The translations under genes and the position numbers were made by a program. The notes under the pieces are model-generated. The model ran no database searches. It was not told where the DNA came from and was given only the letters and a program-made list of their open reading frames with translations. Below, in pieces: positions 36,169-42,252 of a stretch of DNA of 64,000 nucleotides (the stretch's first letter is position 1; the number at the start of each line of letters is the position of its first letter). Source of the stretch: Gimibacter soli (GTDB lineage: Bacteria; Pseudomonadota; Alphaproteobacteria; Sphingomonadales; Kordiimonadaceae); assembly GCF_028463845.1 (NCBI RefSeq), contig NZ_CP116805.1, forward strand, positions 1 to 64,000. Direction: 5' to 3'.

Positions 36169-38076
36169 TTAGTCTTTAACGATGGGCAGCCACACGGCGC
36201 TGGCTTCGGCCCCGCCTGTCGCCACGCTTTGCGTTGCCGCCTTATAGTCCCCGGCCTTCGCGTTGAAGATGTTCGGCACGAAGGTTTGCGGGTTGCGGTC
36301 GTAAAGCGGGAAGAGTGTCGATTGCACCTGCACCATGATGCGGTGGCCGGGCTGGAACACATGGTTCACGTTCGGCAGTTCGAACTTGTAGTTTTCCACC
36401 TTGCCCGGCGTCAGGGCAGCGGGCGCATCGAAGCCATGGACATAACGGCCCCTGAAAATCTCGATCCCCACGCCCATCTGGTAGCCCGCCATTTTCGGAA
36501 CCGCCGAAAACTCCTCGGGCGATACGTCGATCAGTTTCACGACCCAGTCGCTGTCGGTGCCGGTGGTTGCCGCAAACAGGTCCACCAGCGGTGCCCCGGC
36601 GATATGGACCGGGGCATCAAGGGGCCCGGTCACATAGGTCAGCACATCGGGGCGACCATCCACAAAGCGCTGGTCGGCCACAAGCCATGGCTTCCACTGG
36701 TCCGCGTCGCCCATATCCACCGGGCGCGGGATGAAAGGCACGGGCTTGGCGGGATCGGAGACATAGTCATCCTTCGCCTCTGCCTTCGGCTTTTCAAAGC
36801 CGAGCCCACCGCCCGCCTGCAGGTAGATGGGCGTGGGTTTGCCGCGCGGCCACCCGTCGCTCACTTCCCAGCGGTCGGCGCCGGTGGCGTAGGTCAGCAC
36901 CGGCGGGGTTTTCACCTTCGGCGCGCCGTCCTTCAGGTAACGGTCAAGGAAGGGCTTCATATAGTCCCGGCGGAACTCGAGCCCCGTATCGCCCTTGAAA
37001 TCAAGTGCAGCAAGCGACCGGGCTTCATAATTCACACCGCTGTGGCGCCACGGCCCGATGACCAGCGAGACCATGTCGTTCTTCTTGTCCTGCGGCTCCA
37101 GCGCCTTATAGACGGCGGGGGCGCCGTAGCTGTCTTCCTGATCCCACTGGCCGACGACCAGCATCGTCGGCACCGTAAGCTTGCGCTCGCCCAGGATCTT
37201 GTCCACGGCCTGAAGCTTCCAGAAATCGTCATAGGCCGGATGGTTCATCATCTTCTGCGTCTGGCCGAAGGCATCAAGGCCGAAGCGCCGGGCGAAATCA
37301 CCCGCCGAACCGGACGAGAGGAAAAGCTCATATTCATCCCCCGTGCCCTGCGGCACCGGGCCATTGCCCTTGCGCGCCATCTGGCCTGTGAAATAACCGA
37401 AGGAATTGAGGCGGAAGGCCCCGTTATGGAACCAGTCGTCCCCGATCCAGCCATCCACCATCGGGCTTTGCGGCACGGCGGCCTTCAGGGCCGGGTGCGG
37501 GTTCACCAGCGCCATCAGCGTGGTGAAGCCAAGGTAGGACGAGCCCGTGATGCCGACTTTGCCGTTTGTCTCGGCCACATTCTTCACGAGCCAGTCGATG
37601 GTGTCGTAAGCGTCGGTCGAATGGTCGATGCCTGAATTGTTCAGCGGGCCGGTGAGCGGCCGGTTCATCACATAGTCGCCTTCGGACTTATAAAGCCCGC
37701 GCACATCCTGATAGACACGGATATAGCCGTCGTTCACGAACTCGGCGTCCATCACTGTCAGGATTTCCTCGATCTTCTGGCTGGGGTTCCGCCAGGTTGC
37801 TTTCGAGGCATTGTAGGGCGTGCGGCTGAGGAGGATCGGCGCATCCTTGGTGCCCTTGCGCATCACGACAACGGTGAAAAGCTTCACGCCGTCACGCATC
37901 GGGATCATGATTTCACGGCGGATGTAATCGGCTTCGGCGCGAACGGGATCGTAAACTTCGACCGTATCCGGCCGCATCGCTTCCTGCATCAGCGCTGTCG
38001 CATCATCTGTGTGCGCGCTGCCGGTCGCGGCCAAAATCGCCATCAGGGCCAAAGGCCCAACCATTTTCTTATGCAT
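36169..38076 (-). CDS. Exported CocE/NonD family hydrolase
   Basis: Alpha/beta-hydrolase of the X-Pro dipeptidyl-peptidase S15 / cocaine esterase / glutaryl-acylase group. Signal peptide at residues 1-22 (LALMAILAATGSA-HT). The hydrolase domain begins with IPMRDGVKLFTVVVMRKG; the nucleophile Ser sits in VGITGSSYLGF near residue 165. C-terminal jelly-roll XPP domain with GRYVHGFDAPAALTPGKVENYKF and PGHRIMVQVQSTLFPLYDRNPQ. Substrate unknown: ester, amide or peptide. Start ATG 38076 follows GGGGG by 6 bp. 635 aa, single gene. Confidence 0.9.
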   Translation of the reverse strand: MHKKMVGPLALMAILAATGSAHTDDATALMQEAMRPDTVEVYDPVRAEADYIRREIMIPMRDGVKLFTVVVMRKGTKDAPILLSRTPYNASKATWRNPSQKIEEILTVMDAEFVNDGYIRVYQDVRGLYKSEGDYVMNRPLTGPLNNSGIDHSTDAYDTIDWLVKNVAETNGKVGITGSSYLGFTTLMALVNPHPALKAAVPQSPMVDGWIGDDWFHNGAFRLNSFGYFTGQMARKGNGPVPQGTGDEYELFLSSGSAGDFARRFGLDAFGQTQKMMNHPAYDDFWKLQAVDKILGERKLTVPTMLVVGQWDQEDSYGAPAVYKALEPQDKKNDMVSLVIGPWRHSGVNYEARSLAALDFKGDTGLEFRRDYMKPFLDRYLKDGAPKVKTPPVLTYATGADRWEVSDGWPRGKPTPIYLQAGGGLGFEKPKAEAKDDYVSDPAKPVPFIPRPVDMGDADQWKPWLVADQRFVDGRPDVLTYVTGPLDAPVHIAGAPLVDLFAATTGTDSDWVVKLIDVSPEEFSAVPKMAGYQMGVGIEIFRGRYVHGFDAPAALTPGKVENYKFELPNVNHVFQPGHRIMVQVQSTLFPLYDRNPQTFVPNIFNAKAGDYKAATQSVATGGAEASAVWLPIVKD

Positions 38077-38232
38077 GAAATGCCCCCTGCTGTCTGGCTG
38101 CCGCCAGACTGTCACGGCTCCCCGCCGGGGGTCAACCGGCGAGGATGAATGTCATATGAACATGCCCCTCAGCTTACGCTCAAGCTTGACGCGTTAGGGT
38201 TGGCCTATCGATTAGCGAGAGGAGCGATCCAG

Positions 38233-39048
38233 ATGAGAAACGCCCGTGAGAAAGTGTCCATCGTCCGCCGTTTCGGCATTTCAGCGGCGCTCGTAGCTGG
38301 CCTCGTAACGGCCGCTACCTACAGCGCCCGTGCCCATGATGCCGCCCACGATGCCCGCAGCCACGACAAGGGACAGCGCCACAGCGCCTATCCCTTCTAT
38401 GTGGCGGTGAAGCTGGATACGCGCCACGGTCGGCACGATGCCCCGGCGCTGGATCAGACCCGCGTGATGGACGCCATCGCCCGCTCGCTGCCCTCGGGTG
38501 TGCGGCTGGTGGACCCCCGTGACCGCCGCGTGCGGCCCGATATGGTCCTGGCCGTCAACGAGCGTACGTTCGACCTGGATTTCAACGTGCTGAACAGCAA
38601 GCGTGCGAGCGCACCCTACCGGACCGGCACCTTCCTTGCCGGCTGCGGCCCGCTTTACGGCGCCAGCTTCGTCCGGGTGACCGAACAGGCAACCGCCCGC
38701 TACAGCTATGATGTCCGGGTCAACAACCGCTTTGCGCCCGATCATGTTGCCACAGTGCACGGCCTGCAAAGCGACAGCTTCAACTATGGCACCGGCCTCA
38801 CCGGTCATGGCGCCTGCGGGACCGTTGCCCACGCCCCGATGCCTGCAAGCTGGGTGGGTGACCTGTTCGACCGCGATGACCTGAGCACCCGCCACGGCAT
38901 GGCAGACGGCATCCGCCGCACCGCTGCCGAGGATATGGGCCGCAAGATCGCAGGCCTTATCCGCAACGAACAGGACCGGGTGCAAAAGGCAGAAAACGAC
39001 TGGCGCGGCCATGACCGCCAGTATGCGGATGCCCGCGGCAGGCGCTGA
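38233..39048 (+). CDS. Exported hypothetical protein
   Basis: Not recognised. Residues 1-38 form a long signal peptide (VRRFGISAALVAGLVTAATYSARA-HD), then a His/Asp-rich stretch (HDAAHDARSHDKGQRH). The mature part has mixed beta features (PFYVAVKLDT, PDMVLAVNERTFDLDFNVLNS) and two Cys (LAGCGPLYG, HGACGTV) that could form a disulfide. A charged C-terminal helix ends in GRR. Start ATG 38233 after GAGAGGAG. 271 aa. It is divergent from the CocE-type gene and is followed by a hairpin-rich region and a terminator. Confidence 0.72.
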   Translation: MRNAREKVSIVRRFGISAALVAGLVTAATYSARAHDAAHDARSHDKGQRHSAYPFYVAVKLDTRHGRHDAPALDQTRVMDAIARSLPSGVRLVDPRDRRVRPDMVLAVNERTFDLDFNVLNSKRASAPYRTGTFLAGCGPLYGASFVRVTEQATARYSYDVRVNNRFAPDHVATVHGLQSDSFNYGTGLTGHGACGTVAHAPMPASWVGDLFDRDDLSTRHGMADGIRRTAAEDMGRKIAGLIRNEQDRVQKAENDWRGHDRQYADARGRR

Positions 39049-39059
39049 CCGGCGAAAGA

Positions 39060-39249
39060 ATGAGTTATCGGACGGCCGTCACTATGGCCCCTGTTTTGAG
39101 TAGAGGGTCGTCCGACTGCCGCCAGGGCACTTTCCAAAGTGTCCGCGGCGAAAGCCCCTCCCCGGCGCCACACGCCCGCCCTCGCTGGGGCCGGCGCCGG
39201 GGAGCGCGGCTAAACCTTCCGGCCCGATTGGCTCTCGGGCCGGCTTTTT
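39060..39249 (+). ncRNA. Candidate structured RNA or 3'-UTR: four helices ending in a terminator
   Basis: Read on the + strand the gap contains in order: a closing helix TCGGACG / CGTCCGA (39068-39074 with 39109-39115) around two small hairpins (GCCGT-CACT-ATGGC and CCCT / AGGG); a 14-bp hairpin 39118-39149 (GCCGC, 2-nt bulge, GGGCACTTT / AAAGTGTCC, GCGGC, one G-T pair); a perfect 12-bp helix 39158-39169 with 39193-39204; and a terminator at 39219-39249. No convincing ORF lies here. It could be an independent small RNA or a processed 3'-UTR of the preceding gene. It does not match 6S, SRP, tmRNA or RNase P RNA features I know. Confidence 0.4.
39219..39249 (+). terminator. Rho-independent terminator ending the hairpin-rich region
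   Basis: 9-bp stem CCGGCCCGA / TCGGGCCGG, loop TTGGCTC, then CTTTTT. Confidence 0.85.
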
Positions 39250-39269
39250 GTTGCAATGGCCCAAAAAGG

Positions 39270-39300
39270 AAACGCCGGGAAATACCCGGCGTTTTTGTTT
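39270..39300 (-). terminator. Bidirectional terminator after nrdB
   Basis: 10-bp stem AAACGCCGGG / CCCGGCGTTT with loop AAATA. It has a T-run on the + strand (TTTTTGTTT) and T-rich sequence on the minus strand (CGTTTCCTTTTT), so it can stop nrdB from the right and backs up the preceding terminator from the left. Confidence 0.8.
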
Positions 39301-39319
39301 ATCTTCGATGGCCTGCCTC

Positions 39320-40279
39320 TCAGCTGAAGGCTTCGTCCCAGCTTCCGCGGGTTGCCGCCTTCGAATATTCGGTGGCACGGTTTTCGAAGAAGTTGGTGTG
39401 TTCCACCGCGTTCAGCATGTTATCGAGCCACGGCAGCGGGTTATCCTCGATCTGGTACATGGCGTCGAAGCCAAGCTGGCCAAGGCGGCGGTCAGCGATA
39501 TAGCGGATATATTGCTTCACTTCCTCGGGCTTCAGGCCCTCGATCTCGCCCATGCCGAACGACAGGTCGATGAAGGCATCTTCGTGCTCCACAATCGTGC
39601 GGCAGGCATCAACGATCTGGGCTTTCAGGTCGTCGGTCCAGATTTCCTTGTGTTCGGAGATCAGCGTCTTGAAAAGCTTGATGATGCTGTCGCAGTGCAG
39701 GCTTTCGTCGCGCACCGACCAGGAAACAATCTGGCCCATGCCCTTCATCTTGTTGAAGCGCGGGAAGTTAAGGAGCATTGCGAAGGACGCAAAAAGCTGC
39801 AGCCCCTCGGTGAAGGCCCCGAACACGGCAAGCGTCAGCGCGGTCGACGATAGGTCGTCCGAGTTGAACTGCTGCATGTAATCGTATTTATCCTTCATTT
39901 CCTTATACTTAAGGAAAGCGGAATATTCGGTTTCCGGCATGCCGATCGTATCGAGAAGGTGGCTGTAGGCCGCGATATGGATGGTTTCCATATTCGAGAA
40001 GGCCGAAAGCATCATCTGCACCTCGGTCGGTTTGAAGACCTTGGTATAATGCTTCATGTAGCAGTTATTCACCTCGATATCCGACTGGGTGAAGAAGCGG
40101 AAAATCTGGGTCAGCAGGTTCTTCTCGGACGGGGTCAGCTTGTTCGCCCAGTCGCGCACATCCTCGGCCAGCGGCACTTCTTCCGGCAGCCAGTGGATCT
40201 GCTGCTGCTTCAGCCAGGCTTCATAAGCCCAGGGATAGCGGAAGGGTTTGTAGACGTGGCGTTCTTCAAGAAGCGACAT
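39320..40279 (-). CDS. nrdB: Class Ia ribonucleotide reductase, beta subunit
   Basis: Holds the di-iron centre and tyrosyl radical that feed NrdA. Seen: iron-ligand region FTQSDIEVNNCYMKHY, the ETIHIAAYSHLLDTIG segment equivalent to the radical tyrosine region, and a second ligand helix SVRDESLHCDS. No ATP-cone at the N terminus. Start ATG 40279 is 8 bp after GAGG. 319 aa. It follows nrdA by 86 bp on the same strand. Confidence 0.96.
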   Translation of the reverse strand: MSLLEERHVYKPFRYPWAYEAWLKQQQIHWLPEEVPLAEDVRDWANKLTPSEKNLLTQIFRFFTQSDIEVNNCYMKHYTKVFKPTEVQMMLSAFSNMETIHIAAYSHLLDTIGMPETEYSAFLKYKEMKDKYDYMQQFNSDDLSSTALTLAVFGAFTEGLQLFASFAMLLNFPRFNKMKGMGQIVSWSVRDESLHCDSIIKLFKTLISEHKEIWTDDLKAQIVDACRTIVEHEDAFIDLSFGMGEIEGLKPEEVKQYIRYIADRRLGQLGFDAMYQIEDNPLPWLDNMLNAVEHTNFFENRATEYSKAATRGSWDEAFS

Positions 40280-40365
40280 GGGCAAAGCCTCGAAACGAAA
40301 GGGTCGGGGTCAGGCGGGACGGCTGCATTTGCCGCCCCGTTCGCGAAAAGGAGCTACCTGCCGCC

Positions 40366-42252
40366 TTATTGGCAGGCCAGGCATTCCTCGTAATTGGTGG
40401 TCGTCTGCACCGGCATCTCGGCAAGGGCGAGCTGCACGGCTTCGGGCGATTTCTTCTTCAGCGTATCGTTCGAGACAACCTCGGCACGCTGGATCGATTT
40501 CGACCGGCAGTAATAAAGGCTCTTCAGGCCCTTCTTCCATGCCTGGAAGTGGATCTGGTGCAGGTCGCGCTTGTGCACGTCGGCCGGCAGGAAGATATTC
40601 ACCGACTGGGCCTGGCTGATGTAGGGCGCGCGGTCGGCGGCAAGTTCCACCACCCAGCGCTGGTCCAGCTCGAACGCGGTCTTGAACACAGCCTTTTCCT
40701 CGTCCGAGAGGAAATCGAAATGCTGCACCGAGCCCTCGTTCACGGTGATCGAGGTCCAGACGGCTTCAGTGTTCATGCCTTTTTCTTCCAGAAGGCGGGT
40801 CAGTGCGCGGTTGCGCACGTTGAAGCTGCCCGAAAGCGTCTTCTGGTTATAGCTGTTGGCCGCGATCGGCTCGATGCCGGGGCTCGACCCGCCACAGATT
40901 GTGGAGATCGAAGCCGTCGGCGCGATGGCCGTCTTGTTCGAGAAACGCTCCATGATGCCATAGTCGGCGGCATCCGGGCACGGCCCGCGCTCCAGCGCCA
41001 GCTCGTGCGAGGCACGGTCCACCTCGGTCTGGATATGCTTGAAGATGCGGTTGTTCCAGGCTTTGGCGAGCGCGCTTTCGAACGGGACCATATTGTCCTG
41101 CAGGAAGCTGTGGAAACCCATCACGCCAAGGCCGACCGAACGCTCGCGCATCGCGGCATAGCGGGCCTTCACCATGCTGTCGGGCGCACGGTTGATAAAG
41201 TCCTGCAGCACGTTATCAAGGAAGCGCATCACATCGGGGATGAACTGCTTGTCGTCTTTCCATTCCTTGTAGGTTTCAAGGTTCAGGCTCGACAGGCAGC
41301 ATACCGCCGTGCGCTCGTTGCCAAGGTGATCAACACCCGTCGGCAGCGTGATCTCGGCACACAGGTTCGAGGTCTTTACCGTGAGGCCGGCGAGCTTGTG
41401 ATGTTCGGGAATCTGGCGGTTCACGGTGTCGGAATAGATGATATAGGGCTCGCCGGTTTCCACACGCGCGGTGAGGAGGCGAATCCACAGGGCGCGGGCC
41501 GAAACGGTCCGCACGGCATGGCCGTCCTTGGGGCTCGTCAGCGCGAACTGCTCGTCGGCTTCCACCGCGCGCATGAATTCGTCGGTCACGAGCACGCCGT
41601 GGTGCAGGTTCGGCGTCTTGCGGTTCGGGTCACCACCGGTGGGGCGACGCAGCTCGATGAATTCCTCGATCTCCGGATGGTGGATCGGCAGGTAAACGGC
41701 GGCCGAACCACGGCGCAGGCTGCCCTGGCTGATGGCGAGGGTCAGGCTGTCCATCACCCGCACGAAGGGAATGATGCCGCTGGTCTTGCCCACACCGCCG
41801 ACGGTTTCGCCGATCGAGCGCAGATTGCCCCAGTAGGAACCGATGCCGCCGCCACGGGCCGCGAGCCATACGTTCTCGGTCCACAGGCCGACGATGGAAT
41901 CAAGCTTGTCCTGTGCTTCATTGAGGAAGCAGGAAATCGGCAGGCCACGGCTGGTGCCGCCGTTCGACAGAACGGGCGTTGCCGGCATGAACCACAGCTT
42001 CGAGATATAATCATAGAGCCGCTGCGAGTGTTCCTTGCTGTCGCCGTAATAGCTGGCCACACGGGCAAACAGATCCTGGAAACTTTCACCGGGCATCAGA
42101 TACCGGTCCGACAAGGTCGCCTTGCCAAACTCGGTGAGGAGATCGTCGCGGCTGCGGTCAATCTGGACCGCGCCACCGTGCTCGTAATGCGTGACCTCAA
42201 ACATGGTGCCCATAACTCCCTTTACCACCTGATTCGGAATCGTTCTCTTCAT
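40366..42252 (-). CDS. nrdA: Class Ia ribonucleotide reductase, alpha subunit (no ATP-cone)
   Basis: Reduces NDPs to dNDPs. Catalytic pieces visible: ISCFLNEAQDK (redox Cys equivalent to E. coli C225), SNLCAEITLP (thiyl Cys and Glu), AVCCLSSLNL, and the C-terminal shuttle CLACQ. GSSPGIEPIAANSY and VGLGVMGFHSFLQ also match. At 628 aa it is about 130 shorter than E. coli NrdA and starts directly in the ten-stranded barrel lead-in (LSDRYLMPGESFQDLF), so the N-terminal ATP-cone that senses dATP is missing. Start at 42252 or 42213. Tandem NrdR boxes lie upstream. Confidence 0.95.
   Translation of the reverse strand: MKRTIPNQVVKGVMGTMFEVTHYEHGGAVQIDRSRDDLLTEFGKATLSDRYLMPGESFQDLFARVASYYGDSKEHSQRLYDYISKLWFMPATPVLSNGGTSRGLPISCFLNEAQDKLDSIVGLWTENVWLAARGGGIGSYWGNLRSIGETVGGVGKTSGIIPFVRVMDSLTLAISQGSLRRGSAAVYLPIHHPEIEEFIELRRPTGGDPNRKTPNLHHGVLVTDEFMRAVEADEQFALTSPKDGHAVRTVSARALWIRLLTARVETGEPYIIYSDTVNRQIPEHHKLAGLTVKTSNLCAEITLPTGVDHLGNERTAVCCLSSLNLETYKEWKDDKQFIPDVMRFLDNVLQDFINRAPDSMVKARYAAMRERSVGLGVMGFHSFLQDNMVPFESALAKAWNNRIFKHIQTEVDRASHELALERGPCPDAADYGIMERFSNKTAIAPTASISTICGGSSPGIEPIAANSYNQKTLSGSFNVRNRALTRLLEEKGMNTEAVWTSITVNEGSVQHFDFLSDEEKAVFKTAFELDQRWVVELAADRAPYISQAQSVNIFLPADVHKRDLHQIHFQAWKKGLKSLYYCRSKSIQRAEVVSNDTLKKKSPEAVQLALAEMPVQTTTNYEECLACQ

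Follow-up and report, generated by a model that had tools for sequence, protein, structure and literature searches.

We propose that the last ~190 nt of the mRNA of an exported protein in Gimibacter soli act as a small RNA, which would repress envelope and regulator genes through their ribosome-binding sites; the comparison of related genomes leads us to put the probability of this reading at roughly 0.55. Three of its components can be read in the sequences: the structure of the element, a loop that stays fixed on a changing stem, and the complement of this loop, which is kept at the starts of orthologous genes.

Structure of the RNA element

The window, by which we mean the whole analyzed stretch of 64,000 nucleotides, belongs to a genome of 3.59 Mb assembled as a single contig. 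The element is preceded by the exported-protein gene (38233–39048, plus strand) and followed by the convergent nrdB gene (minus strand, ending at 39320), which encodes the small chain of ribonucleotide reductase; the large-chain gene comes next. The following features were delimited:

39067–39252, plus strand: conserved structured RNA at the predicted 3′ end of the exported-gene transcript, delimited by identity with the sister species and by fold z-score
39068–39115, plus strand: hairpin 1 (z −3.8, 0 of 200 shuffles as good)
39118–39149, plus strand: hairpin 2 (13 bp, z −4.6)
39154–39210, plus strand: hairpin 3, the putative seed hairpin (z −3.0), whose plan is shared with relatives
39179–39186, plus strand: putative loop seed CCCUCGCU, with the core CCUCGCU at 39180–39186, complementary to AGCGAGG(A)
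39219–39249, plus strand: intrinsic terminator, a 9-bp stem (39219–39243) followed by TTTTT, the same in the sister species
39270–39294, no strand assigned: palindromic terminator between the convergent transcripts, probably that of nrdB and outside the RNA

The plus strand of 39049–39256 folds with an energy of −112.4 kcal/mol (z −4.8), better than all 200 shuffled sequences. The minus strand of the same region gave a z-score of −2.8, and a reading of the element on that strand was set aside, since three features favor the plus strand: the terminator, the conserved loop and the association with the exported gene. The original prediction had described a branched helix, a 14-bp hairpin, a perfect 12-bp helix and a rho-independent terminator, all in one orientation. 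The four elements indeed lie on the plus strand, and both the perfect helix (39158–39169/39193–39204, within hairpin 3) and the terminator stem with its TTTTT were found. The first helix exists at 39068–39115, but its lowest-energy form is unbranched, with internal loops and a 10-bp base, and the second hairpin, at 39118–39149, has 13 bp plus a 2-nt bulge instead of 14 bp. The earlier statement that the region resembles no recognized RNA family agrees with the Rfam 15 search, in which no match in the window reached the gathering score; the same threshold gave 0 matches in 20 related loci, and a permissive scan of 39000–39330 returned 7 matches (best E 0.13), all far under the gathering score. 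The mechanically called open reading frame at 39060–39503 (plus strand) overlaps nrdB in antisense.

Conservation of the element and its linkage to the exported gene

In the sister species, the element is identical to that of the window in 174 of 187 aligned columns, compared with 692/816 in the coding sequence, 240/302 in the 300 nt upstream of the gene, 10/18 right after the stop codon and 50/111 past the terminator. Hairpins 1 and 2 are nearly invariant, unpaired bases included, and hairpin 1 is unchanged between the two species of the genus. The arms of hairpin 3 change from GGCGCC/GGCGCC to GGTGTC/GGCACC, so that one C-G pair becomes U-A and another becomes U-G. Conservation of the helices in close relatives, on which the original prediction had staked its case, is thus seen in the sister species, including a double change (C-G to U-A) in the 12-bp helix. 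A DNA similarity search of 59 genomes found the element only in the window's genome and in the sister species.

Past the element, the sister species has another sequence in place of nrdB, with the large-chain gene ~4 kb further on, and the palindromic terminator at 39270–39294 was not found in the aligned sister sequence. The original prediction had left open whether the element is a free-standing RNA or a structured 3′-UTR. Because the element stays with the exported gene while the following gene differs between genomes, the 3′-UTR option fits better. A promoter scan of 38000–40500 gave zero predictions, the region upstream of the exported gene included, and therefore does not help to choose between the two.

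The gene that precedes the element, together with its leader, comprises:

38157–38172, plus strand: TGAAC-N7-TCAG, putative promoter or regulator site, assigned from its conservation
38214–38224, plus strand: AGCGAGAGGAG, the exported gene's own Shine-Dalgarno region, complementary in part to the loop
38233–39048, plus strand: exported protein, function unassigned, encoded by the mRNA expected to contain the element

All family genomes except G002 and G007 (27 of 29) have an ortholog of the exported gene, as do 7 of 167 other genomes examined in the order. Outside the genus, the orthologs are 20–26% identical to the window's protein; in Pseudokordiimonas caeni LB-31 the locus, the only one found in a protein scan of the contigs, is 85% identical. 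The protein gave nothing above the cut-off in Pfam, and a search of the 27 orthologs against Pfam and NCBIfam yielded isolated weak matches in three members in all.

The motif TGAAY-N5-7-TCAG occurs within 150 nt upstream of 22 of the 27 orthologs, mostly 68–78 nt before the start, where ~0.04 would be expected judging by the rest of the loci. Its copy in the window (38157–38172) looks like a promoter or a two-component regulator site, and its conservation suggests that one regulator would control both the protein and the 3′ RNA, an arrangement like that of CpxP and CpxQ. The putative targets described below do not share the motif: a similar sequence was found in 160-nt leaders of 0/23 TonB_C, 1/28 regulator and 0/29 DUF2807 genes.

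The loop of hairpin 3 is conserved on a changing stem

The sequence CCTCGCT occurs within 170 nt past the stop codon in 17 of the 27 orthologs, whereas its frequency in the remainder of these loci (7 in 180,444 nt) would predict ~0.2. Three further orthologs (L013, L027 and L029) carry the near-canonical loops CCTCGC or CCTCGTA, six (L005, L008, L011, L012, L014 and L015) have no such loop, and the last one, L007, is truncated by the end of its contig. In two of these six, the closely similar loci L012 and L015, the canonical loop is replaced by CTCCTTCGC, the exact complement of GCGAAGGAG in the leader of the same gene. The motif lies mostly at the top of a hairpin with a terminator next to it, and its mean unpaired probability in the 17 orthologs is 0.75, compared with 0.31–0.45 for all 7-mers of each region; in L006, L010, L020 and L021 it is lower (0.51–0.58). 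In the window's genome, the loop begins with C and would pair over 7 bp with the sites described below; inside the hairpin, G39184 and C39185 are predicted to be partly paired.

The plan of hairpin 3 is kept in most of the family and changes in its stem compensate each other, the kind of change for which the original prediction had proposed a covariance search, although the hairpins counted, nine out of 20, were picked for a common register and this choice favors structure. In these nine hairpins, 70.6% of the cells pair compared with 51.1% after shuffling (0/500 shuffles as good), the covariation score is 0.519 compared with 0.239 (0/500), and 13 cells have a two-sided change (0/500). Weaker results were obtained when we counted the pairs that change on both sides (6; 52/500) or the additional pair types (13; 24/500). 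All covariation measures fell when the pairing partner was shifted by one to three columns.

None of the seven orthologs from the order's other families has CCTCGC; one, L064, has a hairpin right after the stop codon with UCUCCUCCCCCUC, a general anti-Shine-Dalgarno sequence, in its loop. The loop of the family may have derived from such a general sequence.

A model of the hairpin, run against 29 genomes at E values up to 10, produced numerous weak matches, and among the 30 loci fetched from them there was no clear second conserved locus. At least five of the fetched matches are the known exported-gene hairpins and many others lie inside long open frames; the least explained are L338, L341 and L345. 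L345 (genome G009) contains, around position 1510, a non-coding hairpin whose long stem is GC-rich and whose loop carries UUUUCCUCGCG; it may be a further RNA with a seed resembling this one.

Complementary sites at the starts of other genes

The complement of the loop, AGCGAGGA, serves as the ribosome-binding site in groups of orthologs that span several genera. Followed by ATG 4–9 nt later, it is present in 29/29 genomes of the family (range 7–35 sites), and the window's genome has 31 such sites compared with 5 for the reversed pattern. From G000 (the window's genome), G003, G008, G010, G013, part of G006 (4 of its 11 sites) and 30 loci returned by searches, we collected 80 distinct frames of at least 40 codons, among which similar proteins of different genera cluster. 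When three genomes were compared, similar proteins from different genomes were paired 7 times behind AGCGAGGA sites, in 4 cases across genera, and 0 times behind the control AGCGNAGGA; the control was smaller (19 vs 39 frames), its sites were less often true starts and many lay within coding sequence, and G003 contributed 7 of its 13 test and 7 of its 14 control sites. In the window's genome, 22 frames follow AGCGAGGA, and the 17 scanned with Pfam include TonB_C, DUF2807, MacB_PCD, MatE, HlyD, ABC ATPase and Gcw_chp outer-membrane-like proteins, as well as a LuxR regulator, a serine acetyltransferase-like protein, DJ-1/PfpI, a GFA enzyme and others. Envelope genes make up many of these, though not all. 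Short basic peptides of ~40–47 residues, most of them rich in arginine, are also found behind AGCGAGGA (L078, L085, L087, L095, L111, L132, L148, L153 and L178) in several genomes, among them G007, which has no exported gene.

We then examined the starts of the orthologs of four of these genes. AGCGAGGA is present in 18/23 orthologs of the TonB_C exported protein (GCGAGGA in 23/23), 17/28 of the LuxR-type regulator, 9/29 of the DUF2807 exported protein and 7/26 of the MacB-like permease. The TonB_C rows represent 23 of the 28 genomes with a match (the weak matches of G006, G013, G020, G022 and G027 were excluded, and G023 has no match), the regulator rows 28 of 29 genomes (a partial match in G019 was excluded), and the MacB-like rows 26 of 27 genomes with a match (G028 excluded, distant paralogs retained). 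The counts 17/28 and 9/29 carry two misassigned starts, as the DUF2807 gene of G008 has the site and the regulator gene of G002 has none; the column counts for the regulator include the misassigned G002 start, and the tests of loop against site given below use the corrected values. The targets were selected for sharing the 8-mer; outside the discovery genomes, the exact site is found in 12/17 TonB_C, 12/23 regulator and 6/25 DUF2807 leaders.

In the TonB_C and regulator alignments, the block stands out from drifting flanks, including its AGC, which lies outside the core Shine-Dalgarno sequence; in the DUF2807 leaders the C of the block is A in half of the rows. The start-site controls were unusable: nrdB gave 6 rows, some of them off the true start, and the starts of nrdA could not be assigned. 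For 13 of the 17 canonical-loop genomes, we predicted the duplexes between loop and leader, and 23 of 25 fell between −13.7 and −21.1 kcal/mol. Another sequence, CGACA, occurs within 60 nt from the start in 48/80 TonB_C, LuxR and DUF2807 leaders; it was counted in 8/80 AGCGAGGA frames (40 nt) and 11/179 background leaders (35 nt), an unmatched control of differing lengths.

Co-occurrence of loop and sites, and other explanations

For the TonB_C and regulator genes taken together, exact sites were found in 23/29 cases in genomes with the canonical loop, 5/6 with a near-canonical loop and 6/14 with no loop or no gene. The difference between the first and the last group has a Fisher p of about 0.02, uncorrected for phylogeny and excluding G004; taken singly, the targets do not reach significance (TonB_C 0.15, regulator 0.09, DUF2807 0.37, with 7/17 sites where the loop is present). 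The loop and the sites thus appear to co-occur weakly. Five of the six loop-less genomes (G009, G011, G022, G025 and G028) still have AGCGAGGA before one or more of the three targets. The two genomes without the gene have the exact 8-mer in 0/6 of the three targets, and their totals of AGCGAGGA-start sites (16 in G002 and 11 in G007) are inside the family range; one such site precedes a MacB-like paralog in G002 and one precedes a small Arg-rich peptide (L095) in G007. Since sites persist without the loop or the gene, the seed is shared by other RNAs, or else these sites have functions beyond this RNA. The sites could be held by something else, be it a protein that binds RNA, a second small RNA whose seed resembles this one or a bias toward this sequence among local ribosome-binding sites, with the loop sharing them only partly or by chance. 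The non-coding hairpin of G009 with UCCUCGC in its loop would suit this explanation, as does the persistence just described, but AGCGAGGA is kept at orthologous starts across genera as the exact complement of the loop, and the model search revealed no clear second conserved hairpin locus among the 30 fetched. We consider this explanation unlikely.

The loop might instead pair with the ribosome-binding site of its own mRNA. For icaR of S. aureus, a 3′-UTR motif reportedly pairs with its own 5′-UTR and covers the Shine-Dalgarno sequence. The window's own leader contains AGCGAGAGGAG, the pattern AGCG-N0-3-RGGA is found in 9/27 own leaders compared with 14/179 background leaders, and the pairing of loop and own leader ranks high in L004, L012, L015, L023 and L029, including the exact 5′–3′ complements of L012 and L015. 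However, in the conserved-loop loci L006, L009, L010, L020 and L028 the own pairing is no better than that of about half of the background, and in L016, L024 and L026 it is among the worst. As strong pairing with the own site is limited to a minority of the orthologs and, unlike in icaR, is not conserved across the family, autoregulation was rejected as the main function, and we regard it as decidedly improbable. It is still harder to credit that the hairpins form a plain structured 3′-UTR that just protects the mRNA and ends transcription. Terminators between convergent genes are ordinary, and nrdB is convergent downstream; such a 3′-UTR would account neither for a loop that stays fixed while its stem changes nor for the complementary sequence found at ribosome-binding sites.

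Proposed mechanism and relation to known systems

According to our preferred reading, that of a small RNA acting on other mRNAs, transcription would start at the exported gene's own regulated promoter, with the terminator closing the 3′ end. The 3′ end would then be cut free, probably by RNase E, or would be active inside the full transcript. Hairpin 3 would expose [U/C]CCUCGCU, which could form ~7–11 bp with AGCGAGG(A) of mRNAs encoding the TonB_C exported protein and the LuxR-type regulator and, in some genomes, the DUF2807 exported protein and the MacB-like permease. Pairing over the ribosome-binding site would block the entry of ribosomes, probably with the help of Hfq, which is encoded in the genome. 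Because the pairing covers the Shine-Dalgarno sequence, repression is the predicted outcome. The transcript, its processing, Hfq binding, repression and a role in envelope stress are what we infer from these features.

Besides icaR, the closest parallels come from three described systems. The alpha-r14 RNA NfeR1 of Sinorhizobium meliloti and related RNAs have a fixed, pyrimidine-rich anti-Shine-Dalgarno loop on freely varying stems (PMC10746234, PMC3927594), and NfeR1 represses its targets by pairing over the Shine-Dalgarno sequence. The element resembles them in its fixed loop complementary to ribosome-binding sites and its variable stem, but, as described there, those RNAs have three (or four) hairpins, each with CCUCCUCCC, whereas here a single loop, [U/C]CCUCGCU, appears more specific and lies behind an exported-protein gene. 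Membership in alpha-r14 was rejected, as that family is defined by three CCUCCUCCC hairpins and the element has the single loop CCCUCGCU. CcsR1–4 of Rhodobacter sphaeroides are alphaproteobacterial RNAs processed from the ccaF1 3′-UTR (PMC8625941); they share with the element the origin in the 3′-UTR of a protein gene of an alphaproteobacterium, with processing presumed here, and differ in being four RNAs whose parent gene encodes a small RNA-binding protein, a comparison made on their published description. CpxQ, from the cpxP 3′-UTR of Enterobacteriales, belongs to a 3′-UTR that is conserved above the rest of its envelope-stress gene, and represses envelope genes by pairing (PMC9438474). Here too the 3′-UTR surpasses its gene in conservation and envelope targets are predicted; we claim no sequence relation.

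The element lies behind a protein gene and ends in an intrinsic terminator, as small RNAs derived from 3′-UTRs do, and like the trans-acting members of that class it has a conserved seed with complementary sites at the starts of other genes. It has the defining features of none of the described families with which we compared it, and, judged by sequence, we place it as a new family within a known kind. Literature searches for UCCUCGCU found only work on aptamers in sepsis, and those for Kordiimonas and small RNA only work on coral bacteria.

A broader picture can be drawn only tentatively, and we would not expect it to hold in full. A Cpx-like response with two arms might arise from one regulated transcript, which would encode an exported protein from a family not yet described and also yield a 3′ small RNA. 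Through its extended, specific anti-Shine-Dalgarno loop, this RNA would silence TonB-like, adhesin-like, ABC-export and LuxR genes as one shared regulon, and the genus of the window would have gained two further, nearly invariant hairpins. If the small-RNA reading is true, it would provide a small RNA with a named seed and a testable list of targets for bacteria on whose small RNAs our literature search retrieved a single paper, the one on coral bacteria. It would also indicate that orthologous 3′-UTRs and start sites, compared across genera, can reveal an RNA regulon despite stems that have drifted beyond the reach of DNA searches or Rfam.
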